Below are positions 2,478-14,811 of a DNA stretch of 64,000 nt, piece by piece. Source of the DNA: Desulfocapsa sp. Lineage in GTDB: Bacteria > Desulfobacterota > Desulfobulbia > Desulfobulbales > Desulfocapsaceae. Where the stretch lies: the NCBI GenBank assembly GCA_022712895.1, contig JAFLJS010000023.1:1-64000 (forward strand), written 5' to 3'. Made by a program: the position numbers and the translations under genes. The notes beneath the pieces were generated by a model, which saw only the letters and a program-made list of their open reading frames with translations, had not been told where the DNA came from and made no database searches. Position 1 is the stretch's first letter. Each line of letters starts with the position of its first letter.

Positions 2478-4166
2478 CTACTTTGTATGATTTACAGCCA
2501 AAAATTTACATTTTTTAACGAGCAAATCAATTATAGGCTTAATGTTTTCATGAGTGGATGGCCTGTTATCAAATCGGTTTGTAACACGCCTATGTGCACG
2601 GTACTTAGTATAAGTAACACTCAACTGGTTTTTAGCTCTCGACAACGCTACATATATCGCACAGTTATTTTCAAAAGGTTCACTGGTATAAGTCCAAAAT
2701 GCTTGATCTTCTATACCCATAAAATATACCGCATGATATTCAAGACCTTTACATTTATGAATATTCATTATCTGTACAGCATTCTCTGCATTAAATAACT
2801 TTGAGGCATCCTCTAATGAACCTGATTGGGAGCACATATTTCTCAAATGAACCTCAAGTACTTGCCAAACCTTATTGTAATATCCTGGCGATTTATATTG
2901 CTTCCAGCGCCCTTTAATCATTTGCGTTCCGAGGAAATGATTAAATCTCTGAATATACGATAACAGCTCATCGACTGTCGTACCAGTCGTTAGTAGTCCT
3001 TGCATAAGTGATATGAAATTAACAAGAGAGGTCGTTAACTCTTCTTCTTTATCATCTCCGTCGTCAACTTTATTTAAAGCCAAGTTAGTCCTATATAACT
3101 CAGTCATGACTTTGGGTGTAGGACATATTAATGCTTTCAAAAATAATGTGAATAGTTGTCCTAAAGGCTCCTTTAAAGCATCTTGCAAGTCAGACATATC
3201 AAGGTTGTTTATTCCTACTTTAGTAAGTTCGGCCCTTAGTATTTCAGTGTATAGCGAGGACTGTTGCTTTGTTAGAATACAAATATCTCCTTCACTTACA
3301 CCTGTACCAATAAGCTTTCTGATATTCTCTACAATAAAAGATGCTTCTTGGTATTCATCACCGAATACATTTATCGAACAACTTGGAGCTGGAGTAGCTA
3401 ACTCAGTTACAGGCTGACTTGGGTCTTTAATATATTGTAGGACGATCCCCAGTACATCTTGAATTTCCTTCGATGCCCTATAATTTTTAACCAGAAGTTT
3501 ATTGGTTGCCTCGAAGTCGTTTATAAAGTCCTTAAAGACCGTTTGTCTTGCTCCAGCCCACAGCATAATACTCTGATAAATATCACCTACGGTTAATACT
3601 GTGGTAGCAGTATGTTGAAAAAGTAGTTGAAGAAGTGCATATTGCTCATTTGTCGTATCTTGAAACTCATCAACAAATACATAATCATATGAATAGGAAA
3701 AAATGTCTCGTATATCAGCTCTAGCTTTCAAAATTTTGATCGCCAATGCTAATAAGTCATCCATCAAGATATTATCAGTTCCACTTACGTCTTGCCGGCG
3801 AAATACAATATCGTAATTATTTATTGGTCGCTCAGCTTCTGGTAAGACATTTTTAAATCTATCAACAATGCTTTTACAGAAGGCGTGAAAAGTAAAAGAA
3901 TCAAACCTAGTTGCTTTGATCCCACAGCGCTTATTTACTCTTTCTTTTATGTTGAGCTGCGCTTCAGTTTTAAATGTTAATGATAATATTCTGTTAGGCC
4001 AAACACACTTATCTGTAAAAAATAAGTAATTAGCCTTTTGAGCCAATAACTCTGTTTTACCAGCACCTGCACCAGCAAGAACAGCGACTGACTCTTCACA
4101 TGTGATGATATCCATTAGCTCATCTGTAGCTTGAATACCATCTGAGGGACACCATTGAACCTTCAC
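2478..4166 (-). CDS. gajB: Gabija-type UvrD-like helicase GajB
   Basis: 562 residues, superfamily 1A DNA helicase. Walker A is AGAGAGKT near residues 31-38, Walker B is FVDEFQDT near residue 170, and the late motifs NIHKCKGLEYHAVYF (V) and YVALSRAKNQL (VI) are present. It starts with GTG at 4166, overlapping the gajA TGA by four bases (GTGA), so the pair is translationally coupled. A UvrD-like helicase directly after an OLD-family nuclease is the defining layout of Gabija anti-phage systems (class 2 OLD loci). GajB is thought to sense DNA ends or termini of replicating phage DNA and assist GajA. It is longer than the well-studied B. cereus GajB (about 494 residues). A stand-alone Rep/UvrD repair helicase is less likely given the partner. 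Confidence 0.88.
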   Translation of the reverse strand: MKVQWCPSDGIQATDELMDIITCEESVAVLAGAGAGKTELLAQKANYLFFTDKCVWPNRILSLTFKTEAQLNIKERVNKRCGIKATRFDSFTFHAFCKSIVDRFKNVLPEAERPINNYDIVFRRQDVSGTDNILMDDLLALAIKILKARADIRDIFSYSYDYVFVDEFQDTTNEQYALLQLLFQHTATTVLTVGDIYQSIMLWAGARQTVFKDFINDFEATNKLLVKNYRASKEIQDVLGIVLQYIKDPSQPVTELATPAPSCSINVFGDEYQEASFIVENIRKLIGTGVSEGDICILTKQQSSLYTEILRAELTKVGINNLDMSDLQDALKEPLGQLFTLFLKALICPTPKVMTELYRTNLALNKVDDGDDKEEELTTSLVNFISLMQGLLTTGTTVDELLSYIQRFNHFLGTQMIKGRWKQYKSPGYYNKVWQVLEVHLRNMCSQSGSLEDASKLFNAENAVQIMNIHKCKGLEYHAVYFMGIEDQAFWTYTSEPFENNCAIYVALSRAKNQLSVTYTKYRAHRRVTNRFDNRPSTHENIKPIIDLLVKKCKFLAVNHTK

Positions 4167-6202
4167 TCTACAACCTGTTTTGCAAGCTCAATTACTTTCT
4201 CAGATAGCCGTTTAAGCTCCAAAGGCAACTTGTCTTTTATGTTCGCAGAATCATATTTATCTTCAATCTTAGCGAACATTCGAACGTGAGATGCAGGTTT
4301 GCTCTTGCTTGACAAAAAACGATAGCGATACCAAAGGAAGTTACGCTCCCAATCATCCCCAAATTCAAATCGCCGGCCAGTATTACCTTTCTTCAGCACT
4401 GCTTTGTTCAGTGCTGTCTCTCTTTTAGCAACATCTGCATCTTCGTCATCTTCTTTTCCCTCAAATGGGCCGCGTTCGCCATAACTGTCATCTTTTTGAC
4501 AAAAGATATCGGGAAAAGCACAAATCATTGAGTAATCGATATCTAATGGGCTAGAGAAGTACACATTACAAACCTCTAATTCATTAACAATATTCTTTTT
4601 AACGCCCTCGAAGTCTATTGTAAGTAAATTCGGATTTGCGCTGTTAGTCCAATCAGGTATGTGAGGAAGAATAGTCTTATTGATATATGTACTCCCTGTT
4701 GCATCCATTTCAAGCAACTGTTCAACAACATATTTTATTCTACCGAAGCCTCCACCATTACGGTCAATATCAAAATCTAACAAAGTAACAAATGGTATTT
4801 TTAATGAATTTAGTAAACGCCAAAAATGGTTTACATGCCTTCCCCCTAGTGGCACAACAGAAATAGAATGTGAATCAACATCCGTTCCATACTGTTCTAA
4901 CAACTTAGGAATAATCACCTTTTCACTGTCGCCTTCTCCAAGAACAACAAGTTTTGCAAAATAAATTTCAGGATAAGCCTTTACAGCTTCACTGATATAC
5001 TTTGCTTGTTCGTCATCATCTTGAGGTAATGTTAACGATTGAATATGGGTACTTTGGGTTTCATTGCCTAATCGGAAATGACGTATTTGTGATGGTTCAA
5101 CTCTTCCAACTACTGAAGCGGAGTGCGTAGAAACAACAGCTTGACACGACTTACTATCACCGTACTCTTTAATTAGCTTTATAATGCGCCCTAGATAATG
5201 AGGTGACAGATGATTCTCTGGTTCTTCTAATGCGATCAAACTAAAAATAGGCAACTTCATTTTGTCAGCATCAAAATTTGAAGGTTGCTTATCAATTATG
5301 GCTTTTCGAGTCGCTTGATCTATATCAAATAGTGCTTTAGTCAAAGCAAAATAAACAAGAGATTTTTGCCCATCACTCAATCTTCTTGTATCTACTTTGT
5401 TCCCTGCCGCGTCAGGCATAAACTGAAGTTGTATCAACTTCAATATTTCATCTACCTTCCCTACGGGAAAATTGAGGCCAGCTTGGTTAAGATGACGACC
5501 TTTATATATTTTTTGCCAGTTCTTATTTATAGTTTCTGTGATTTGTGCCAGTGCTGGGTTGTCTGTTGCTAGCTGATTCAATTCTTGTGCTTTCTCTTCA
5601 AACGATTCTTGCTCACCTTCTGACCACTTTATAGCTTTGAACAAGCGACCTAAAATAGCTTTAGAAGAATACTTTATTTGAACTAAAGGATCTCTATTCG
5701 CTGGTATATAGGTGACTTGAATTGCATTTCGATGTGCAGCCAATAATCGATGTTTATTGTCTTCTTCGGGTTCGTCCATGTCACCATCGACAACCCACAT
5801 ACTCTCATCCACATCACCTAAAGGGCTGTAATCAAAACTCAAACTCGCTTCCAAACGAATCCTGAAAATAATTTCCCCACTAGTGCTTGAAACGGTTAAT
5901 CCATTAATTAATGGGGGTATAGAGGGCTTACCACCAGCATCTGATAAAGTAAACCATGCCTCAATCAGTAAATTTTTAGGAGTATCTTTATCAGCCTCAT
6001 CTTTCAAATAAAAGTCGGAAGGCGTTATCCCTCGTAAAGAATGATCAATCGCAAACAGTTTATTTAAAGCTTCTAAAGCTGCACTTTTCCCAGTTCCGTT
6101 GTGCCCAATAAAAGTTGTTATGTCATGTTCAAACTCTATTGTTTGTGGATGTTCTGTAGAAATACTCTTATATCCAGACACTGTTACTTTCTTTAATAGC
6201 AT
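4163..6202 (-). CDS. gajA: Gabija-type OLD nuclease GajA (ATPase + TOPRIM)
   Basis: 679 residues. The N-terminal ABC-type ATPase has Walker A GHNGTGKS near residues 33-40, signature RRLSDGQKSLVYFAL near 279-293, Walker B LIALEEPENHLSPH near 323, and H-loop VVSTHSASVV near 360. The C-terminal TOPRIM nuclease domain has VVLGEGDSEKV near 420 and LLDFDIDRNGGG near 475, giving the metal-binding Glu and DxD acidic residues. ATG at 6202 follows an AGAGAT-type ribosome site. GajA of B. cereus is about 578 residues, so this one carries roughly 100 extra residues, mostly in the C-terminal part, where a Glu/Asp-rich insert lies near 575-590. In Gabija, GajA nicks DNA when nucleotide levels fall. The 4-base overlap with gajB supports one operon. 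Confidence 0.9.
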   Translation of the reverse strand: MLLKKVTVSGYKSISTEHPQTIEFEHDITTFIGHNGTGKSAALEALNKLFAIDHSLRGITPSDFYLKDEADKDTPKNLLIEAWFTLSDAGGKPSIPPLINGLTVSSTSGEIIFRIRLEASLSFDYSPLGDVDESMWVVDGDMDEPEEDNKHRLLAAHRNAIQVTYIPANRDPLVQIKYSSKAILGRLFKAIKWSEGEQESFEEKAQELNQLATDNPALAQITETINKNWQKIYKGRHLNQAGLNFPVGKVDEILKLIQLQFMPDAAGNKVDTRRLSDGQKSLVYFALTKALFDIDQATRKAIIDKQPSNFDADKMKLPIFSLIALEEPENHLSPHYLGRIIKLIKEYGDSKSCQAVVSTHSASVVGRVEPSQIRHFRLGNETQSTHIQSLTLPQDDDEQAKYISEAVKAYPEIYFAKLVVLGEGDSEKVIIPKLLEQYGTDVDSHSISVVPLGGRHVNHFWRLLNSLKIPFVTLLDFDIDRNGGGFGRIKYVVEQLLEMDATGSTYINKTILPHIPDWTNSANPNLLTIDFEGVKKNIVNELEVCNVYFSSPLDIDYSMICAFPDIFCQKDDSYGERGPFEGKEDDEDADVAKRETALNKAVLKKGNTGRRFEFGDDWERNFLWYRYRFLSSKSKPASHVRMFAKIEDKYDSANIKDKLPLELKRLSEKVIELAKQVVE

Positions 6203-7389: not shown

Positions 7390-8571
7390 ATGGCCGTACA
7401 AAATTATATATTAGAAAATTACTCCCCCTTAGACTTGAGTAATTCAACTCAATCGTCTCAATCCCATCTTTTTTTATCACTACATCATCCGGCAAGGAAA
7501 AATGCAGGCTTGATGGAGAAACTATTTCTTCCCTCTGCGGGTGCTCTGTACGTATATCGTCCTAGCAAACGCCGGTGTGTTTTGAACCGGGCTGTAGAAA
7601 AATTAGAGAGAAGTGCGCTTCCCGGCTATGAATATGTCATAGCTCATTTGTACGACAAGTATCGTCGTAATCTTACTATCAGCACCATCAGTCGGACTGG
7701 AGAAACATTGAGTGGTTTTCTGATGTTTTTGCAAAAAACTGGAAGATCAGGCCTCGAGACAATCCGCCGCAAAGACATTGCTGCCTATATTGATCATGAG
7801 CAAGAAAGAGGTTTGAAAGTAAACTCTGTCAACAGCCACCTACAGATGGTGTACGCTTTTCTTCATTACTTGATTGATAATGACGTTCTCCCTTTGGAAA
7901 TCATCTATAAAAGAATCAGAGTAAAGTTACCCGAAGTGCTTCCCAGAGCAATTCCCATGGAAGATCTTAGAGCAATTGTTGCTGCAATCACATCTGTGCG
8001 AGACCGTGCCCTTGTTCTGTTGTTGCTGCACACCGGTATGCGTATTGGAGAGCTCCTCCAGCTAAAAATGACAGATATTATCCTACCTGAACGAAAGATC
8101 CTGTTGTTTATCGGAGAGAAGAATCTCCATGGCCGAGTTGTTTATTACAACCGTGAAGCTGAAGAAGCACTGAAGGAGTGGTTGGCTGTAAGGAACAGGG
8201 GCAGTGAATCTCTGTTTTACGGATACAGAGGACGAGAACTCTCCTATGCCGCTGCACGAAAGGTATTTGAAAAGGTTACCCTACAGGCAGGGCTTGAACA
8301 AAAAGGATACAGCCTTCATTCACTGCGGCATACTTTCGCCACCAATATGCTTAACGCCGGATTACGCCTGGAGGTACTGCAAAAACTTCTGGGACATCTC
8401 AATATCGAGATGACTCTTCGATATGCGAAGATCGCTGATGGTACAAGAGAAGCAGCATACTTCAAAGCAATGGCAGTTATAGAGAAAGGAGAAAACCATG
8501 AATATGACAGAGTCAATCCCGAACTACAGGCAGTATTTGAAGAGGAAGAATTATTCGGAATTAACGGTTAA
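7390..8571 (+). CDS. Tyrosine recombinase 1 of a tandem pair
   Basis: 393 residues. Residues ~75-170 form the SAM-like core-binding domain, ~195-365 the catalytic domain. Catalytic residues seen: Arg in HTGMRIGE, His-x-x-Arg in SLHSLRHTF, His in LLGHLNIE, and nucleophile Tyr in TLRYAKI. The ATG at 7390 follows a strong AAGGAGGAA. An extra ~70-residue N-terminal region precedes the SAM-like domain, unlike XerC/XerD (about 300 residues). Its 3' end overlaps the next recombinase by 74 bases. Paired overlapping tyrosine recombinases recall RIT (recombinase-in-trio) elements, though a third gene is not seen. Presumed role: site-specific integration or excision of the local element. Confidence 0.88.
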   Translation: MAVQNYILENYSPLDLSNSTQSSQSHLFLSLHHPARKNAGLMEKLFLPSAGALYVYRPSKRRCVLNRAVEKLERSALPGYEYVIAHLYDKYRRNLTISTISRTGETLSGFLMFLQKTGRSGLETIRRKDIAAYIDHEQERGLKVNSVNSHLQMVYAFLHYLIDNDVLPLEIIYKRIRVKLPEVLPRAIPMEDLRAIVAAITSVRDRALVLLLLHTGMRIGELLQLKMTDIILPERKILLFIGEKNLHGRVVYYNREAEEALKEWLAVRNRGSESLFYGYRGRELSYAAARKVFEKVTLQAGLEQKGYSLHSLRHTFATNMLNAGLRLEVLQKLLGHLNIEMTLRYAKIADGTREAAYFKAMAVIEKGENHEYDRVNPELQAVFEEEELFGING

Positions 8572-9388
8572 AAATTACCTTCACAGACTGAAGCTGTTCT
8601 TTAGCTGGTTACCGGCTAAGCTAGAGGCTGCATCGAAAACAGATATGAATAACTATATCGATTATCTGCTGGAAAAGAAGTTGTCACCACGTACTATTAA
8701 CTGCCATCTTTCAACAGTTCGTGGGTTCTATGATTACCTCATCTACGAGGAAGAGGTCTCATTAAACAATCCAGTGGCCAGAGGCAAGATGCTTCGTGAA
8801 CCACACCCTCTCCCAATGTACCTCCATGACAATGAACTCCAGTTGTTTCTCGAGAATGTGTCCAGCACAAGGGATCTTGCCATGTTCATGTTGATGCTGC
8901 GTTGTGGCTTGCGTGTGCAGGAGGTCGTAAATCTCACTCTTGATGTTATTGATTACAGACGCAGTCGTATCCTGGTTAAATCCGGGAAAGGCGGCAAGGA
9001 TCGAACCGTGTATATCAGCAATGACGCAGCGGTTGCATTGGCAAAGTATTTGAGGAAAAGACCAAGAACTGGTGAGAGACAGATCTTTCTGGCTGAAAAG
9101 GGACGTTACAAAGGCAAGCCAATCTCCGTTCGTGCAGTACAGAAACGCATAGAACATTATGCCAGGGAGATTGGAGTCTCTGTAACCTGCCATAGACTAC
9201 GGCACACGATGGCTACTCAATTGCTGAATGCTGATGCGGATATCGTTTCCATTCAGGAGATGTTGGGTCACTCGAGAATCAAAACGACCCAGCGTTACAG
9301 CAAGCTGCTTAATCTAAAAGCACAGCGTGATTATTTCAAAGCTATGGAGGTGGTGATGGAGAAGACATCTGTAAATCAACTGGAATGA
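8498..9388 (+). CDS. Tyrosine recombinase 2 of a tandem pair
   Basis: 296 residues, XerC/D size. N-terminal SAM-like domain ~1-95, catalytic domain ~105-285. Catalytic residues: Arg in LRCGLRVQE, Lys in SGKGGKDR, His-x-x-Arg in CHRLRHTM, His in MLGHSRI, Tyr in TQRYSKL. The ATG at 8498 has AAGGAG seven bases upstream inside the first recombinase gene, so the 74-base overlap in a different frame looks genuine. Both proteins end with similar sequence (YFKAM..V), suggesting descent by duplication. Probably acts with the first recombinase as a heteromer. Confidence 0.9.
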   Translation: MNMTESIPNYRQYLKRKNYSELTVKNYLHRLKLFFSWLPAKLEAASKTDMNNYIDYLLEKKLSPRTINCHLSTVRGFYDYLIYEEEVSLNNPVARGKMLREPHPLPMYLHDNELQLFLENVSSTRDLAMFMLMLRCGLRVQEVVNLTLDVIDYRRSRILVKSGKGGKDRTVYISNDAAVALAKYLRKRPRTGERQIFLAEKGRYKGKPISVRAVQKRIEHYAREIGVSVTCHRLRHTMATQLLNADADIVSIQEMLGHSRIKTTQRYSKLLNLKAQRDYFKAMEVVMEKTSVNQLE

Positions 9389-9477: not shown

Positions 9478-9872
9478 TACCATCGGAGGAAAAACTTGAC
9501 AAAAGTTCTTAAACGACCAAAAATAGATCAAGGTAACACTGTAACTTAAAAGAAAAAACAGGATCTGCTACGTATATAGACACTGACAGTTACCCGCTGG
9601 AGAGACTGCATTTCATTCGATCAGAAAGGGAGAGCGGTGCCGATAACTAGCACTGAATATATTGGAGCTATATTACTAACCCTTTGTAACCACCTTTACT
9701 CCCATCATACGCAGGGGCTTTCTACTACTGGAAAATATTTAACAAAAGTGTGGTAAGAGACTGTAAAACAGGGATTTTAAAGCTGACATCTCGGCCTTAG
9801 TAGGAATGGGATATATCGGCAATTTGCCAAATGTGGTGATTTGTAGCAAAGGCAGGTTGTTGGAAATGAAAC
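9478..9872. other. Intergenic region between the hairpin and tRNA-Leu
   Basis: No gene seen. It contains the right 11-bp arm TACGTATATAG (9569-9579) that mirrors 7301-7311. Otherwise nothing recognisable. Confidence 0.4.
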
Positions 9873-9904
9873 AACCACTCAACTCAAATTTGAGTTAAGT
9901 GGTT
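9873..9904 (-). terminator. Probable terminator of tRNA-Leu(TAA)
   Basis: A long inverted repeat (AACCACT-c-AACTCAAA paired with TTTGAGTT-a-AGTGGTT) lies ten bases beyond the 3' end of the minus-strand tRNA, followed on that strand by GTTTCATTT. Confidence 0.65.
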
Positions 9905-9914
9905 ATTTTGATTA

Positions 9915-10001
9915 TGGTGCCCGGAGCGAGAATCGAACTCGCACAGCCTCACGACCGAGGGATTTTAAGTCCCTTGCGTCTACCAGTTCCGCCATCCGGG
10001 C
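9915..10001 (-). tRNA. tRNA-Leu (anticodon TAA)
   Basis: Read on the minus strand: GCCCGGA acceptor, D-arm GGCGGAACTGGTAGACGC, anticodon loop CTTAAAA (anticodon TAA), class II long variable arm, GTTCGATTC T-loop, matching acceptor strand and encoded CCA (87 nt). Its 3' end faces the accessory region to the left, the usual side for island insertion. I found no second copy of its 3' end in the window. Confidence 0.95.
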
Positions 10002-10047
10002 ACACCACATAGCCCTTGTACCATGAAGCTGATTTATTTGTCAATTG

Positions 10048-11220
10048 TCAAACAATCATAGAGGCCTCAGAAACGATTTTTTTCATTTCTCTCACAGCCT
10101 GATCAAGTCCGACAAAAACAGCACGAGTAATAATAGCGTGACCTATGGAAAGCTCTTCTATGGTGTACAGGGCGGCTATACGGGCGGTTGTTTGGTAATC
10201 CAGGCCATGTCCCGCATTTACTCGCAGTCCCATTTCGTACGCTTCATCAGCTGATGTTGCAATGAGTTTATATTCCTGGGTTCTTTCATTTTCGCTGGTA
10301 GCGTCGCAATATCGGCCAGTGTGCAACTCAACGTAGGTGGCACCAATGTCATGAGCGGCCTGGACCTGTTTGCTTTCGGGGTCGATAAAAAGAGATACGG
10401 GGATACCGGCCTTTCTCATTTTGGCTATGGTTTTTGCCAGCTTTTTCTTCTGTCCGGCAACATCAAGCCCACCTTCAGTGGTAAGTTCTTTTCGTTTTTC
10501 TGGAACCAGAGTAACCATATCCGGCCTGAGATTAAGAGCAATTTCAATGATTCCTTTGTTGGCACCCATCTCAAGATTCATTCTAGTTTTGATGGTTTCA
10601 CGCAGTATGCGCACGTCCCGATCATTTATATGTCTGCGGTCTTCGCGTAAGTGAACCACAATTCCGGCCGCTCCTGCAAGCTCGCAGATTGATGCGGCAG
10701 TAACAGGATCTGGTTCGGTGATACCTCTGGCATTTCTGACAGTGGCTACATGGTCAACATTAATTGCTAGCTGGGTCATTTGATTGCTCCCTGTATTTTG
10801 TAATTCTGTTATTAATTTTTGTTCAAGATCCCACATGGCAACTGCTTCATCTTCGCTTCGTTCATGGTCGTGCCCAAGAAGATGCAGTAATCCGTGGGTG
10901 ACGAGCCAAGTCAGGTGTGTATGAAGAGTTACTTTTTTCTCTACCGCTTCTCTTGCTGCAGTTTCGACAGAAATGACAATATCGCCAAGTTCCTGAAAAG
11001 GAGATTCTGAAAGAGGAAATGAAAGGACGTTTGTGGGGCCAGGTATTTTTCTGTATTGCTTGTTGAGCCAGCTTATTTCATCGTCATCGACCAGTAGAAT
11101 AGATAAGCTGTGGTCAGCGACTCTATTCTTTCTCATGAGCCAGTGTGCATGGCGCAGCAATAGTTGTTTGCTGACATGTATAGCTGGCAGATCGTAATTA
11201 CTCGAACAATCTACGCTCAT
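10048..11220 (-). CDS. Fused YbeY endoribonuclease - PdxJ pyridoxine 5'-phosphate synthase
   Basis: One open frame of 390 residues joins two usually separate proteins. Residues 1-147 are YbeY (16S rRNA 3'-end maturation and ribosome quality control), with the metal motif HGLLHLLGHDH near 111-121. Residues 148-390 are a complete PdxJ (condenses 3-amino-2-oxopropyl phosphate and deoxyxylulose 5-phosphate to pyridoxine 5'-phosphate), with the start MTQLAINVDHVATVRNARG, HLREDRRHI and ELHTGRYC motifs. At the junction the PdxJ ATG (10777-10779) is in frame and preceded by GGGAG eight bases upstream, so free PdxJ could also be made by internal initiation. The gene follows phoH by 9 bases, as ybeY commonly does. 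The missing stop could be real fusion or an assembly artefact; nothing suggests a frameshift. Confidence 0.9.
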   Translation of the reverse strand: MSVDCSSNYDLPAIHVSKQLLLRHAHWLMRKNRVADHSLSILLVDDDEISWLNKQYRKIPGPTNVLSFPLSESPFQELGDIVISVETAAREAVEKKVTLHTHLTWLVTHGLLHLLGHDHERSEDEAVAMWDLEQKLITELQNTGSNQMTQLAINVDHVATVRNARGITEPDPVTAASICELAGAAGIVVHLREDRRHINDRDVRILRETIKTRMNLEMGANKGIIEIALNLRPDMVTLVPEKRKELTTEGGLDVAGQKKKLAKTIAKMRKAGIPVSLFIDPESKQVQAAHDIGATYVELHTGRYCDATSENERTQEYKLIATSADEAYEMGLRVNAGHGLDYQTTARIAALYTIEELSIGHAIITRAVFVGLDQAVREMKKIVSEASMIV

Positions 11221-11229
11221 TTGAGAAAC

Positions 11230-12207
11230 CTATTTTTTTGAACCGGCATTTTTTTCATATGCTGCGATGATCTTTTGGACAAGAGGGTGGCGGACAACGT
11301 CCTGTTTGGTAAAGTTGCAGAACTGAATACCCTCAACGTCATGGAGCAGGTGTTGTGCGTGACGGAGACCGGATTGTTCAGGTCGTGGAAGGTCTACTTG
11401 TGTTATGTCGCCAGTAATTACTGCTGAGGAATCAAAACCAATTCTGGTAAGGAACATTTTCATTTGCTCCCTTGTGGTATTCTGGGCTTCATCAAGAATA
11501 ATAAACGCATCACTCAAAGTCCTGCCACGCATAAACGCCAGAGGGGCAATTTCAATGATGCCTTCTTCTATGAGGCTGGCACCCTTTTCGGCTCCAAGCA
11601 TATCACTTAATGCATCGTGTAAGGGACGTAAGTAAGGATTTACTTTCTGGGCCAGATCTCCTGGCAAAAAGCCTAATTTTTCACCGGCTTCGACGGCTGG
11701 CCGGGTAAGAATAATAGATCTGATTTGACCGGAAACCAGGGCGGAAACAGCCATGGCTACGGCCAGATAGGTTTTGCCTGTACCGGCGGGTCCTATACCA
11801 AAAACAATATCATTATTGCGAATGGCATCGATATAATGTTTCTGGTTTTGCGTTTTGGGTGAGACAGTACGATTCTCGGCAGTGATATACACTTTATCAA
11901 GAAATATCTTGTCAAGACGTGCATTAGGCGATGCTTCAAGTACTTGGAGGCCAAAGGCAAAATCGGAACTGTATACTTGGAAGCCTTTTTTGATAAGGCC
12001 ATAGAATTGTTCAAGCAGATCTGAAGCCAGTTCAACAGCATGCTCGGGGCCACAGAGTGTGACTCCGTTTCCCCGAGTATGAATTTTGATTTCAGCCTTT
12101 TGCTCAATGAGCAGTAGGTTTTTATTAAGTTCACCGTAGAGTATTGCCGTCTGATCATTATCAGAAAAGCTTAACTCCTTGGTGGTACTATTTGGCGAGC
12201 TCTTCAT
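11230..12207 (-). CDS. PhoH-like ATPase
   Basis: 325 residues. An N-terminal KH-like RNA-binding region (~1-110) precedes a PhoH P-loop ATPase domain with Walker A GIGPAGTGKTYLA near 136-148, RPAVEAGEKLGFLPGD near 173 and Walker B FIILDEAQNTT near 234. It is the PhoH/YbeZ type, an ATPase that partners YbeY in RNA and ribosome metabolism. Its ATG lies 20 bases inside the upstream selenoprotein gene, and ybeY-pdxJ follows closely, so all three form one minus-strand operon. Confidence 0.92.
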   Translation of the reverse strand: MKSSPNSTTKELSFSDNDQTAILYGELNKNLLLIEQKAEIKIHTRGNGVTLCGPEHAVELASDLLEQFYGLIKKGFQVYSSDFAFGLQVLEASPNARLDKIFLDKVYITAENRTVSPKTQNQKHYIDAIRNNDIVFGIGPAGTGKTYLAVAMAVSALVSGQIRSIILTRPAVEAGEKLGFLPGDLAQKVNPYLRPLHDALSDMLGAEKGASLIEEGIIEIAPLAFMRGRTLSDAFIILDEAQNTTREQMKMFLTRIGFDSSAVITGDITQVDLPRPEQSGLRHAQHLLHDVEGIQFCNFTKQDVVRHPLVQKIIAAYEKNAGSKK

Positions 12208-13045
12208 CTATAAGTTTCTGGAACGATGGAAGGTCTCTTTTTTTCAGCTTTACACCGTTTATAAAAATAGTGGGGGTTCCGGTAACGCCAGCTTCTTTTG
12301 CATCTTTAAGATCTTTGGCAAGTTGCTGCTGAATAGCTGGTGAAACAGAATCTTTTTTGAATTTCACCAGATCAAGTCCAAGTTTTGTGGCAATTGCATC
12401 AAAACTATTTTTGTTCAGTTTGGGCGTGGCGAAGAGTTCATCATGGTATTCCCAGTATTTCCCTTGATTTCCTGCGGCAAGAGCTGCAAGGGCAGCAGGG
12501 GCAGCAAGCTTGTGAAAATTAAGAGGCATGTTTTTCAAAACAATTTTTACGGTATCAGGATTGTGCTCGAGCACCTGCTCGAGTAGTGGCACAGCTTTGC
12601 CACAGTGAGGTCATTGGAAGTCCGTAAAAACGACAATTGTTACTGGTGCATCGGCTTTGCCAAGAAATGGAGAGCCGATGACATCGATATCAGCCATAAA
12701 ATCCACAGAAAGATCAGTGAAACTGTTATCCCTGTCGTTGAGCAAATAGAGTCGTTCTCCTCTTGGAGCAATATCTATGGATGAGACTCCCTTTTTTACA
12801 GCAATCTTTCCAAGAAGGTTTCCTTCAGCATCATATACAAGAACCTGCTGCTGATTGGTGAGAATAAAAACACGTTGACCGTCTAACGAATAAACAAGAT
12901 CAATCGGTTTCTCAGGAAGTTGCCAGCTGTTTTCAACCTGCCACTGAACGCCGGAAGCGTCGGAGGCATCTGCTACAGCAAGTGCAGAAGTGGTTGAAAA
13001 AGAAAGCATGAGTATGGCACAGGCCGTAAGACACTGTTTAATCAT
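12188..13045 (-). CDS. DsbA-like thiol oxidoreductase selenoprotein (in-frame TGA = Sec)
   Basis: 285 residues if the TGA at 12611-12613 is read as selenocysteine (residue 145). Ordinary gene calling would split it at that codon. Residues 1-23 are a signal peptide, ~30-115 are beta-propeller-like strands, and ~125-285 a DsbA/DsbG thioredoxin fold. The sequence VVFTDFQ-[TGA]-PHCGK places the TGA exactly where the first Cys of a CPHC active site should be, and the frame continues to a normal C-terminus including the cis-Pro motif VTGTPTIF. A hairpin with AGGT loop 27 bases downstream fits a bacterial SECIS. AGGAG precedes the ATG. Predicted role: periplasmic disulfide oxidation, reduction or isomerisation. 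It overlaps phoH by 20 bases. A disrupted Cys gene is the alternative, but the perfect placement argues against it. Confidence 0.9.
12566..12583 (-). promoter_or_regulatory. Putative bacterial SECIS hairpin for the DsbA-like gene
   Basis: CTCGAGCAGGTGCTCGAG on the minus strand folds into a perfect 7-bp stem with an AGGU apical loop. It begins 28 bases after the TGA, so the loop falls in the 16-37 base window known for bacterial SECIS elements, and the loop GU matches the SelB-contacting feature. It is also coding sequence. Confidence 0.7.
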
Positions 13046-13238
13046 TATATGCTCCTTTCGGTGATTCTGTTAGTGTGTAGAGTAGTAGCATTCTCAAATG
13101 ATGGAGTGCCACTGCAACAAAGTGACAGATATAGTCACTGGTAATCGCTTTTGCAAGGAACTGTTCGTGAAAAATGAATGAGAAAAAAGAAAAATGCTAA
13201 AAAAGATGGTTTTTTTTGCGTAACCTTACTTATCGGTC

Positions 13239-13267
13239 TTGACTGTCTGCGTAATGTGAATTACCTA
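13239..13267 (+). promoter_or_regulatory. Probable sigma-70 promoter of tRNA-Leu(TAG)
   Basis: TTGACT (13239-13244), 17-base spacer, TACCTA (13262-13267), about 30 bases before the tRNA. It may also serve tig. Confidence 0.45.
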
Positions 13268-13297
13268 CTACTAGGTTGTTATCAAAATTTCAAACTT

Positions 13298-13381
13298 GCG
13301 AGGGTGGCGGAATTGGTAGACGCACTGGTCTTAGGAACCAGCGCCTTTGGCATGGGGGTTCGAGTCCCCCCTCTCGCACCA
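13298..13381 (+). tRNA. tRNA-Leu (anticodon TAG)
   Basis: GCGAGGG acceptor, D-arm TGGCGGAATTGGTAGACGCA, anticodon stem-loop CTGGTCTTAGGAACCAG (anticodon TAG), short class II variable arm, GTTCGAGTC T-loop, closing acceptor and encoded CCA (84 nt). It sits 83 bases upstream of tig with no clear terminator between, so it may be co-transcribed. Confidence 0.95.
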
Positions 13382-13464
13382 TTAAACAATTTAAAATCGT
13401 GTTCTGGCCGGTTATTCTTATATCCAGGTCAAAATAAAAAACAAAATAGATAAGGACGGACAGA

Positions 13465-14811
13465 ATGGATGTAGTAGTTGAAGATGTCAGCGCACTTACA
13501 AAGAAAATCACCATTACACTTCCTGCAGAAGGTGTGCAGAAACAACTTGATAAAGCCTATGGCAAGCTTCAGCGTGAAACCAGAATAAAAGGTTTTCGTC
13601 GTGGTAAGGTGCCACGTAAGGTTGTTATTCGTCACTATCAGGGACAAGTTGAAGCTGAAGTCGGTGAGAAACTTGTTCAAGAAAACTACTTTGATGCCAT
13701 CGAACAGGAAAAAATAGATCCGGTAGTTCATCCTGACATTACGGAACCTGTTTTCAATAAGGACGGTTCCTTTACTTTTATTGCTAATATTGATATCCGA
13801 CCAGAGTTTGAGCTTGTTGATTATAAAGGAATTGAAGTTGAGAAGGATACCACTCCTGTCAGTGACGCAGCAATTGATATAGAAATTGAAGAGATGCGTA
13901 GAGACATGGCTCCCCTTAAGTCAGTTGAGGGACGCGCTGTGGAAAATGGAGATGTGATTGTCGTTGACTTTGAAGGTTTCCATAACGGCAAAGCCATGAA
14001 AGAAGTTAAAAATAACAACTACTCCGTTGATGTCGGTTCCGGTAAGCTGAGCCCTGAGTTTGAGGACAAACTTGTTGGCATGCAGAAGGATGAAGAGGCA
14101 AGTCATGAAGTTGAGTTCCCAGCACATTACAACAATCCTGTTCTGGCCGGTAAGGCGATTGAATTTCGTGTAAAAGTTAAGGATGTTAAAGAGCGCGTTC
14201 TTCCTGAAGTGAATGATGATTTTGCTAAGGATGTAGATGTGGAATTTAAAACCCTTGCTGATCTGAAAGAATCCATTGGTAAAACCCTTCAGAAGCAAAA
14301 AGACGAACGGGCAGAAGGAGATACAACAGATCGCATGATGCAGGACCTCTTGAGCAAGCACGTTTTTGATGTACCTGAAAGACTGGTTCGTTTTGAAGTT
14401 GAGGAGATGATTAAGACCACTGAAAAGTCTCTTGAACAGCAGGGCATGAACCTTGAAGCTGCAGGTGTTAATCGTGATGAACTTGCTGAAAAATCCAAGG
14501 AAACTGCAGAAAAACGTGTCCGTGGCGATTTTATTTTAAAGAAAATTGCAGAAACGGAAGATATAAAGGTTAAAGATGAAGATATGGAACGTGCCTTTCA
14601 ACGTATTGGCGATCAATATAATATGTCAGTTGACAAGGTTAAAGAGTTCTTTGGTAACAGAGATGATCTGCTCCCATTCATGAATGAAATTCTGAATGAG
14701 AAGATCCTTACATTTCTTCGTGACAACGCAAAATTCATAGAGCCTAAAGTAGTGGCTCCCGTTGTTGAAGAAGAGAAGAAAGAGGACAGCAGTGAAGAGA
14801 GCACAGGCTGA
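13465..14811 (+). CDS. tig: Trigger factor, ribosome-associated chaperone and prolyl isomerase
   Basis: 448 residues, usual family length. N-terminal ribosome-binding domain with the signature KGFRRGKVPRKVV near 35-48, a central FKBP-type PPIase domain (~155-240, VDFEGFHNG and FRVKVKDVKERVLPEVND), and a helical C-terminal chaperone domain ending in an acidic Glu-rich tail. Start ATG at 13465 follows AAGGA. It heads the conserved tig-clpP-clpX-lon block. Confidence 0.97.
   Translation: MDVVVEDVSALTKKITITLPAEGVQKQLDKAYGKLQRETRIKGFRRGKVPRKVVIRHYQGQVEAEVGEKLVQENYFDAIEQEKIDPVVHPDITEPVFNKDGSFTFIANIDIRPEFELVDYKGIEVEKDTTPVSDAAIDIEIEEMRRDMAPLKSVEGRAVENGDVIVVDFEGFHNGKAMKEVKNNNYSVDVGSGKLSPEFEDKLVGMQKDEEASHEVEFPAHYNNPVLAGKAIEFRVKVKDVKERVLPEVNDDFAKDVDVEFKTLADLKESIGKTLQKQKDERAEGDTTDRMMQDLLSKHVFDVPERLVRFEVEEMIKTTEKSLEQQGMNLEAAGVNRDELAEKSKETAEKRVRGDFILKKIAETEDIKVKDEDMERAFQRIGDQYNMSVDKVKEFFGNRDDLLPFMNEILNEKILTFLRDNAKFIEPKVVAPVVEEEKKEDSSEESTG

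Follow-up and report, generated by a model that had tools for sequence, protein, structure and literature searches.

A DsbA-like protein of Desulfocapsa sp. with a predicted selenocysteine, a fused propeller fragment and a SECIS-type hairpin behind its in-frame TGA

The locus considered here lies on contig JAFLJS010000023.1 of Desulfocapsa sp., in a stretch of 64,000 nt that we call the window and whose positions serve as coordinates throughout. On the minus strand, it holds a gene for a DsbA-like protein with a single in-frame TGA, followed by a phoH-like gene and a fused ybeY-pdxJ frame (Table 1). An earlier note on this DNA, silent on the strand, had proposed that the TGA encodes selenocysteine (Sec) and that mechanical gene calling would hide the gene. 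The list of open reading frames (ORFs) does split it into two short frames, of 144 and 134 residues, and reading the TGA as Sec joins them into one open frame of 285 residues containing TDFQ-U-PHC-GKAV; what a stop-to-stop ORF caller had cut in two is now corrected. We conclude that the gene almost certainly encodes a DsbA-like selenoprotein, a prediction made from sequence because the genome carries the Sec-decoding genes, TGA or a cysteine (Cys) codon occupies the first position of the CxxC motif in homologues, and a conserved RNA element lies downstream.

Table 1. Genes, domains, codons and RNA elements of the locus, in window coordinates.
Feature	Position	Strand	Description
Predicted selenoprotein gene	12188..13045	-	285 residues, Sec at 145; ATG 13045-13043, TAG 12190-12188
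AAAGGAG, ribosome-binding-site-like	13052..13058	-	6 nt upstream of the ATG; by eye
Signal-peptide-like start	12974..13045	-	about residues 1-24; judged by eye; modelled with low confidence
N-terminal two-blade beta-propeller fragment	12704..12913	-	about residues 45-114, seven strands; predicted by structure model
DsbA/thioredoxin-fold catalytic domain	12191..12676	-	residues 124-285; Pfam and fold matches
Putative Sec codon TGA	12611..12613	-	residue 145; single in-frame TGA of the gene
Second redox Cys codon TGT	12602..12604	-	residue 148; invariant in 57 aligned homologues
Thr257-Pro258	12272..12277	-	presumably the cis-proline site of the thioredoxin fold; invariant in 57 homologues
Proximal hairpin H1	12586..12603	-	GUGGCA-AAGCUG-UGCCAC; between UGA and H2
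Distal hairpin H2	12566..12583	-	SECIS apical stem-loop CUCGAGC(AGGU)GCUCGAG; seven-pair stem, AGGU loop
phoH-like gene	11230..12207	-	directly downstream; as listed, it overlaps the tail of the selenoprotein gene, true start perhaps further down; named by eye
ybeY-pdxJ fused frame	10048..11220	-	third in the run; named by eye

As had been claimed, the TGA falls on the first position of a U/C-P-H-C motif, and the sequence on its two sides is coherently DsbA-like, aligning as one protein in 57 homologues (alignment A1, which omits the fragments L030, L050 and L070, the long-extension copies L053 and L064, and the short paralogues L076-L083). The Pfam models Thioredoxin_4 (93.9 bits) and DSBA (71.2 bits, cut-off 25.6) match far above their cut-offs, and UPHC is a UxxC motif, which together place the protein among the DsbA-like selenoproteins as these are defined (PF01323 plus UxxC).

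We searched 56 related genomes, of which 55 gave a match, and read the aligned codon in the 70 best places, comprising 62 long-form copies and eight short paralogues; the remaining places, weaker than E 3e-32, were left out, and with them a short TGA paralogue in each of G041 and G039. Among these best-matching places, the codon is TGA in 43, TGC or TGT in 27 and nothing else in any, as expected of the exchange of U and C for which the earlier note had suggested an alignment. All 38 further loci likewise carry only TGA (18, duplicates included) or Cys. A search covering 297 genomes of the phylum gave matches at E<=1e-25 in 95, in many cases to the catalytic domain alone; 30 loci were used, and the set omits the fragment L157 and long-form matches lacking a locus, namely a second G213 copy, G237, G186, G088, G260, G157 and G236, these long-form matches all being free of an in-frame stop.

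Within the genus (G000-G019), 18 of 20 genomes have TGA, as does the nearest copy, which is 89% identical. It had been pointed out that a plain TGC in close strains, with the TGA here as a sequencing error, would undo the proposal. TGC does occur in two of them, G004 and G009, but independent TGA copies are so numerous that a sequencing error is eliminated, and we read the difference as an exchange of Sec and Cys. A true stop, arising from sequencing error, a pseudogene or two short proteins, would agree with the two frames of the mechanical ORF list, but the recurrence of TGA at the same codon, the alignment of both flanks as one protein, the association of the SECIS with TGA forms and the presence of all four Sec genes in the host genome make it extremely improbable. 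One genome, G032, carries both forms, with Cys in L033 and L045 and Sec in L046.

Several copies deserve separate mention. The short Sec-DsbA paralogues L076-L083 (196-212 residues; eight copies read, ten such places among the matches listed) have neither the propeller segment nor the two-hairpin layout described below. L070, a TGA form in G030, is possibly frameshifted or misassembled, since its N-terminal and catalytic parts match separately. A Nannocystis record (L098) shows seven DsbA-like domains in tandem within 5 kb, in three long frames, and L099 and L102 look alike; these tandem domains have Cys at the aligned place and were set aside.

The genes that the earlier note had wanted searched for, selA, selB, selC and selD, all exceed their cut-offs in the host genome: tRNA-Sec (selC) scores 77.3 bits (cut-off 47), SelB 384.3 (cut-off 242.25), SelA 613.5 (cut-off 267.9) and SelD 372.8 (cut-off 125). 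This equipment also bears on the notion that UGA is read genome-wide as an amino acid under a changed genetic code. Such a code would leave the frame open, but it does not account for the hairpins that accompany the TGA copies or for the tRNA-Sec and SelB of the genome, and seven Sec-form homologues (L019, L046, L063, L065, L069, L072 and L074, all from the relatives surveyed rather than the host genome) use TGA as their own stop. Because several homologues end in TGA, a general code change is disfavoured, and we give it practically no credence.

SelB is over cut-off in 47 of the 56 related genomes, and the other nine speak against the selenoprotein reading. There is no selB match over cut-off in G003, G013, G016, G017, G019, G021, G029, G044 and G053, and TGA copies are present in the first seven of these. 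We checked selC and selA in the nine genomes plus G004 and G009, and selD in eight of these eleven. The selB gene is divided across contig ends in G013 and G016 and is a fragment in G019; five of the seven genomes with TGA copies yielded at least some Sec genes. G003 has selA, selC and selD, with only selB missing, and in G017 and G021 selA and selD are the only Sec genes found. Draft gaps are the likely cause of the missing genes. In G029, a 94% complete draft with TGA copy L036, all four genes stay under cut-off, and there the TGA might be a dead stop, in line with the true-stop reading. The two Cys-bearing members of the genus differ in their equipment: G004 (Cys copy L018) has all four Sec genes; in G009 (two contigs, apparently complete; Cys copy L026 with a full SECIS stem), selB, tRNA-Sec and a TGA-type selD are present and selA gave no match. 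Because the selA match is missing despite the other three, the Sec pathway of G009 may be broken or in the course of being lost.

Two tandem hairpins follow the TGA, of which the distal one, H2, begins 27 bases after it and is taken to be the apical stem-loop of a Sec insertion sequence (SECIS). It had been described as a GU-loop hairpin, and it has proved to covary as a SECIS-type element in all 50 distinct Sec sequences and to be mostly missing from Cys forms. The published bacterial SECIS (bSECIS) model has a loop of 3-9 nt with a G in the first two loop positions, a distance of 16-37 nt from the UGA and a minimum free energy of -7.5 or lower (PMC13188914, a 2026 review); H2 agrees with it in its AGGU loop, in its spacing of 34 nt and in the -11.8 kcal/mol of the H2 region. 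The 54 nt from the TGA, which include H1, fold at -21.0 kcal/mol (z -2.81), and none of 200 dinucleotide shuffles is as stable; against 300 synonymous-codon shuffles, the host H2 has p 0.010.

The pairing statistics for H2 come from alignments of distinct 51-mers only (A4 and A5). In the 50 distinct Sec sequences from order and phylum, standard pairs fill 96.0% of 350 cells, and sliding the register brings pairing to 52.3% at most. There are 21 cells changed on both sides, with a covariation score of 0.264, and for each of these three measures, the share of standard pairs included, none of 500 shuffles is as high. The loop is AGGU or AGUU in every Sec sequence, with at least five of the seven pairs formed in each. 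The 45 Cys sequences pair in 49.8% of cells, similar to their own shuffles. Under the synonymous-codon null, H2 reaches p<=0.05 in 34/35 and 14/16 Sec genes (two sets) and in 2/27 and 0/18 Cys genes; codon choice by itself does not account for H2. Over 13 independent pairs of Sec and Cys forms (starred branches of the tree described below), H2 goes with Sec in 9.4 and against it in 0.0 on average, with a median sign-test p of 0.004 and a range up to 0.008.

Some observations on H2 pull the other way. Two weaker covariation measures are matched by shuffles (57/500 for both-side-change pairs, 21/500 for further pair types), and one Sec copy, L069, has five of the seven pairs and no H2 in its fold. 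A permissive Rfam scan (E<=1) of the 4 kb from 9500 to 13500 returned two tRNAs and weak plastid-family matches only, with none to a SECIS-type family.

The proximal hairpin, H1, is present in most Sec forms at a kept position. Its pairing register is not kept: there are two registers with a common 3' arm, and a single fixed register, which pairs in 73.7% of cells, was rejected as a poor fit. The host H1 has p 0.033 against 300 synonymous-codon shuffles. One may ask if only H2 matters, H1 being a by-product of the codons around the CxxC and VPL motifs. The shifting register speaks for this, as do 18/51 Sec genes in which H1 is non-significant against synonymous codons and an RNAalifold consensus of 35 Sec sequences that contains H2 only. 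On the other side, H1 reaches p<=0.05 in 33/51 Sec genes (25/35 and 8/16 in the two sets) against 3/45 Cys genes (2/27 and 1/18), its hairpins survive the change of register, and over the 13 independent pairs it goes with Sec in 8.7 and against it in 0.0 on average (sign test, median p 0.004, range 0.002-0.039). Further measures are less favourable to H1: two of five are similar to shuffles (190/500 and 382/500), H1 is weaker than -5 kcal/mol in 3/48 Sec genes, and 12/45 Cys genes have an H1-like stability of at least -5 kcal/mol. On balance, we lean slightly towards a functional H1, as a spacer or roadblock, and hold the by-product reading to be a serious contender, a little short of an even chance.

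If H1 is functional, the two-hairpin signal would represent a possible distinct layout of bacterial SECIS; we found no description of a two-hairpin bacterial SECIS in the open-licence literature. The layout is not shared by the only other selenoprotein gene that we folded, the host SelD gene (L042), which has one in-frame TGA of its own and folds into a single strong hairpin at the customary spacing, followed later by a weak one. Among the short paralogues, the codon-shuffle test, which was laid out for the long form, is significant in 0/8 for H1 and 1/8 for H2.

The protein itself is modelled with confidence as an N-terminal propeller fragment fused to a catalytic domain of the ScsC/BdbD type. 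The mean predicted local distance difference test (pLDDT) score is 91.2 for the whole chain and 93.6 for the N-terminal part modelled alone, which forms seven strands in about two blades. The earlier note had called this segment beta-propeller-like and its fusion to DsbA unusual; the model upholds the first description, while the fusion, which recurs throughout the order and also in further families of the phylum, is not unusual. By sequence, the segment resembles the YVTN propeller 1l0q weakly (E 1.2e-4, with no single stretch significant). The model matches 1l0q at E 9.0e-4, 6r5x at E 1.5e-3 (template-modelling score 0.71 by target length) and the two-blade Pizza2-SR (3wwb) with Z 8.9, a root-mean-square deviation (rmsd) of 2.3 and 78 aligned residues, although Z values of about 9, as obtained for the propellers, are modest and come in part from a common arrangement. 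The blade fold is the same as in these proteins, of which 6r5x is a fragment that builds an eight-blade ring from four copies; the segment here has only two blades, rather than a closed ring of four or more in one chain, and is fused to DsbA; any assembly is conjecture. At E<=0.01, Pfam matched nothing in the N-terminal domain of the host copy, and none of its families was hit in more than five of 57 members.

For the catalytic domain, the nearest folds are 3gyk (Z 23.2), BdbD 3eu3 (22.4), Wolbachia alpha-DsbA2 6eez (22.0), Caulobacter crescentus ScsC 7rgv (21.3, rmsd 2.1, 168 aligned) and Proteus mirabilis ScsC 5idr (21.0). The boundary between the two parts invites a regulatory reading, in which selenium shortage would end translation at the UGA and release a 144-residue propeller fragment with a role of its own. 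The UGA does sit where the propeller fragment is complete and most of the catalytic domain is still to come, but such a split is not needed, because Cys forms without a UGA keep the same architecture, and we consider it highly unlikely.

As to enzymology, exported thiol-disulfide exchange is very probably the redox role. An oxidase of DsbA type, recycled by the single DsbB of the genome, is one form that this role could take, and some features tell in its favour and against an isomerase: CPHC, whose dipeptide UPHC shares, is the motif of the oxidase E. coli DsbA, BdbD, which we take to be an oxidase, is among the nearest folds, and the genome does possess one DsbB. However, the lone DsbB gene (on C36) adjoins a different, Cys-type DsbA (CETC), PY, a DsbG-like dipeptide, stands where the host has PH in many homologues outside the genus, and trimeric isomerases are equally near in fold. 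Because the DsbB adjoins the CETC protein, the selenoprotein would be a second, separate DsbA-like enzyme. We found no VKOR in the host genome and one DsbD-TM/CcdA-type protein, on C53; a search there for a redox partner found neither DsbB nor the DsbD-TM protein linked to the selenoprotein gene. Oxidase activity is thus a tentative option that we do not favour, and that the protein is an isomerase or reductase, somewhat more likely than a main oxidase, is a view to which we give an even chance.

The ScsC-type proteins offer the closest comparison. The isomerases ScsC, Wolbachia alpha-DsbA2 and BcfH have a similar catalytic fold (Z 19.7-22.0) and, like the host protein, an N-terminal extension ahead of the DsbA domain. 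PMC8900818 reports Wolbachia alpha-DsbA2 and the ScsC proteins of C. crescentus and P. mirabilis to be isomerases that form trimers, the two ScsC proteins owing the trimer to a helical N-terminal domain (PMC8900818; PMC5524982, PMC6450059, PMC6450060). PMC8900818 describes the trimerisation domain of ScsC as alpha-helical, whereas the host segment is modelled as all-beta with seven strands, so the protein resembles the ScsC class in its catalytic fold and departs from it in its N-terminal domain; the genes that follow, phoH and ybeY-pdxJ, set it apart too. A caution for any isomerase assignment is that the Salmonella Typhimurium ScsC (4gxz) is equally near in fold (Z 20.5) and, having no helical domain, is described as monomeric and as neither oxidase nor isomerase (PMC8900818).

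Taken as a whole, a DsbA-like selenoprotein with the following decoding and role is, we think, the highly probable explanation of the locus. SelB bound to the AGGU loop of H2 would deliver Sec-tRNA to the UGA, and H1 would probably act as a spacer or as a ribosome-entry roadblock ahead of the SelB-binding hairpin. The selenoprotein would then be exported, its periplasmic location being suggested by a signal-peptide-like start judged by eye. The two-blade propeller fragment may hold subunits together or dock a partner, in parallel with the unrelated helical N-terminal domain of the trimeric ScsC-type isomerases; an oligomeric propeller, argued from this analogy, is a tentative idea that we would not put first. 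The Sec145-Cys148 pair would carry out thiol-disulfide exchange on exported proteins.

DsbA-like and DsbG-like selenoproteins with UxxC are already known, and have been listed from Deltaproteobacteria and sea metagenomes (PMC1794560, PMC2398784, PMC13188914). As here, Sec takes the first redox position of their DSBA or Thioredoxin_4 domain, and Desulfovibrio desulfuricans is among the sources listed; the propeller fragment and a two-hairpin SECIS go unmentioned in the excerpts of those papers. The nearest curated model, NF041057 of NCBIfam (Rcas_1661 family thioredoxin-like (seleno)lipoprotein), corresponds to the catalytic domain only, and the host protein scores 69.9 bits against its cut-off of 190, and seven other proteins, five long-form members and two short paralogues, likewise fall far short with no more than 87.0 bits; no NCBIfam model claims the protein. 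Searches for work on Desulfocapsa and Desulfobulbaceae selenoproteins turned up nothing on this gene among titles and abstracts, and the deep-Sep survey, which scanned Desulfobulbia genomes (PMC12013277), may well have counted copies of it. The parts worth following are the two-hairpin signal, the fused propeller fragment and the repeated exchange of Sec and Cys.

The history of this exchange was traced on a 93-protein tree, built with the Sec/Cys site masked, that omits L030, L050, L070, the duplicates L092, L096, L167 and L173, and the short paralogues. The best tree requires 23 switches of state, and well-supported (starred) branches force 13 of these; since shuffled labels need 31 on average, the two states are weakly clustered. 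With midpoint rooting, an ancestral Sec leaves 25 all-Cys groups, and an ancestral Cys without reversal leaves 31 all-Sec groups. The H2 loop with at least five of seven pairs is kept in 5 of 45 Cys forms: L018 and L026, of the same genus, retain seven pairs, L034 and L144 six, and L028 five. Because Sec forms share H2 at one place and these five Cys forms keep remnants of it, repeated change from Sec to Cys is probably the simpler reading for most switches, the root not being established. Gene transfer and hidden duplicates could contribute to the pattern.

PMC1794560 counts 15 changes from Sec to Cys across four families, remnant SECIS-like structures being kept in some, within a general trend from Cys to Sec, and PMC13188914 describes Sec-to-Cys change as rare in bacteria. 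Remnant SECIS elements as such are already known; the DsbA-like family here would be an exception to the rarity, and its repeated switching, with two Cys copies that keep a full SECIS stem, amounts to a test of that view. The boldest version, in which the two tandem hairpins form a distinct SECIS class with both needed, the propeller gathers Sec-DsbA heads into a ring and Sec has been traded for Cys 13-25 times, is unlikely as a package; if true, so many trades would run against the published rule for bacteria. The two Cys copies amid Sec copies in the genus, together with both forms in G032, provide a natural series of Sec/Cys twins, with which the benefit of selenium to an exported disulfide enzyme can be explored.

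The neighbourhood of the gene is another matter on which the earlier note needs correcting, in calling its place at the head of a phoH-ybeY operon unusual. Of the 61 order-level loci with room downstream, 48 have a phoH gene in the same orientation no more than 300 nt behind, Sec (27/34) and Cys (21/27) loci alike; beyond the order, the flanks that were read, some of them short, contained no phoH. The neighbouring genes offer no functional clue, which lends the proposed role no help. YbeY and PdxJ occupy one frame of 390 residues, and among 36 loci holding both, a few of which duplicate one another, 33 keep the junction in frame with no intervening stop. Elsewhere in the window, by names given by eye, positions 4163-6202 (minus strand) encode an ATPase resembling an OLD-family nuclease, and positions 7390-9388 (plus strand) hold two overlapping tyrosine-recombinase-like genes.

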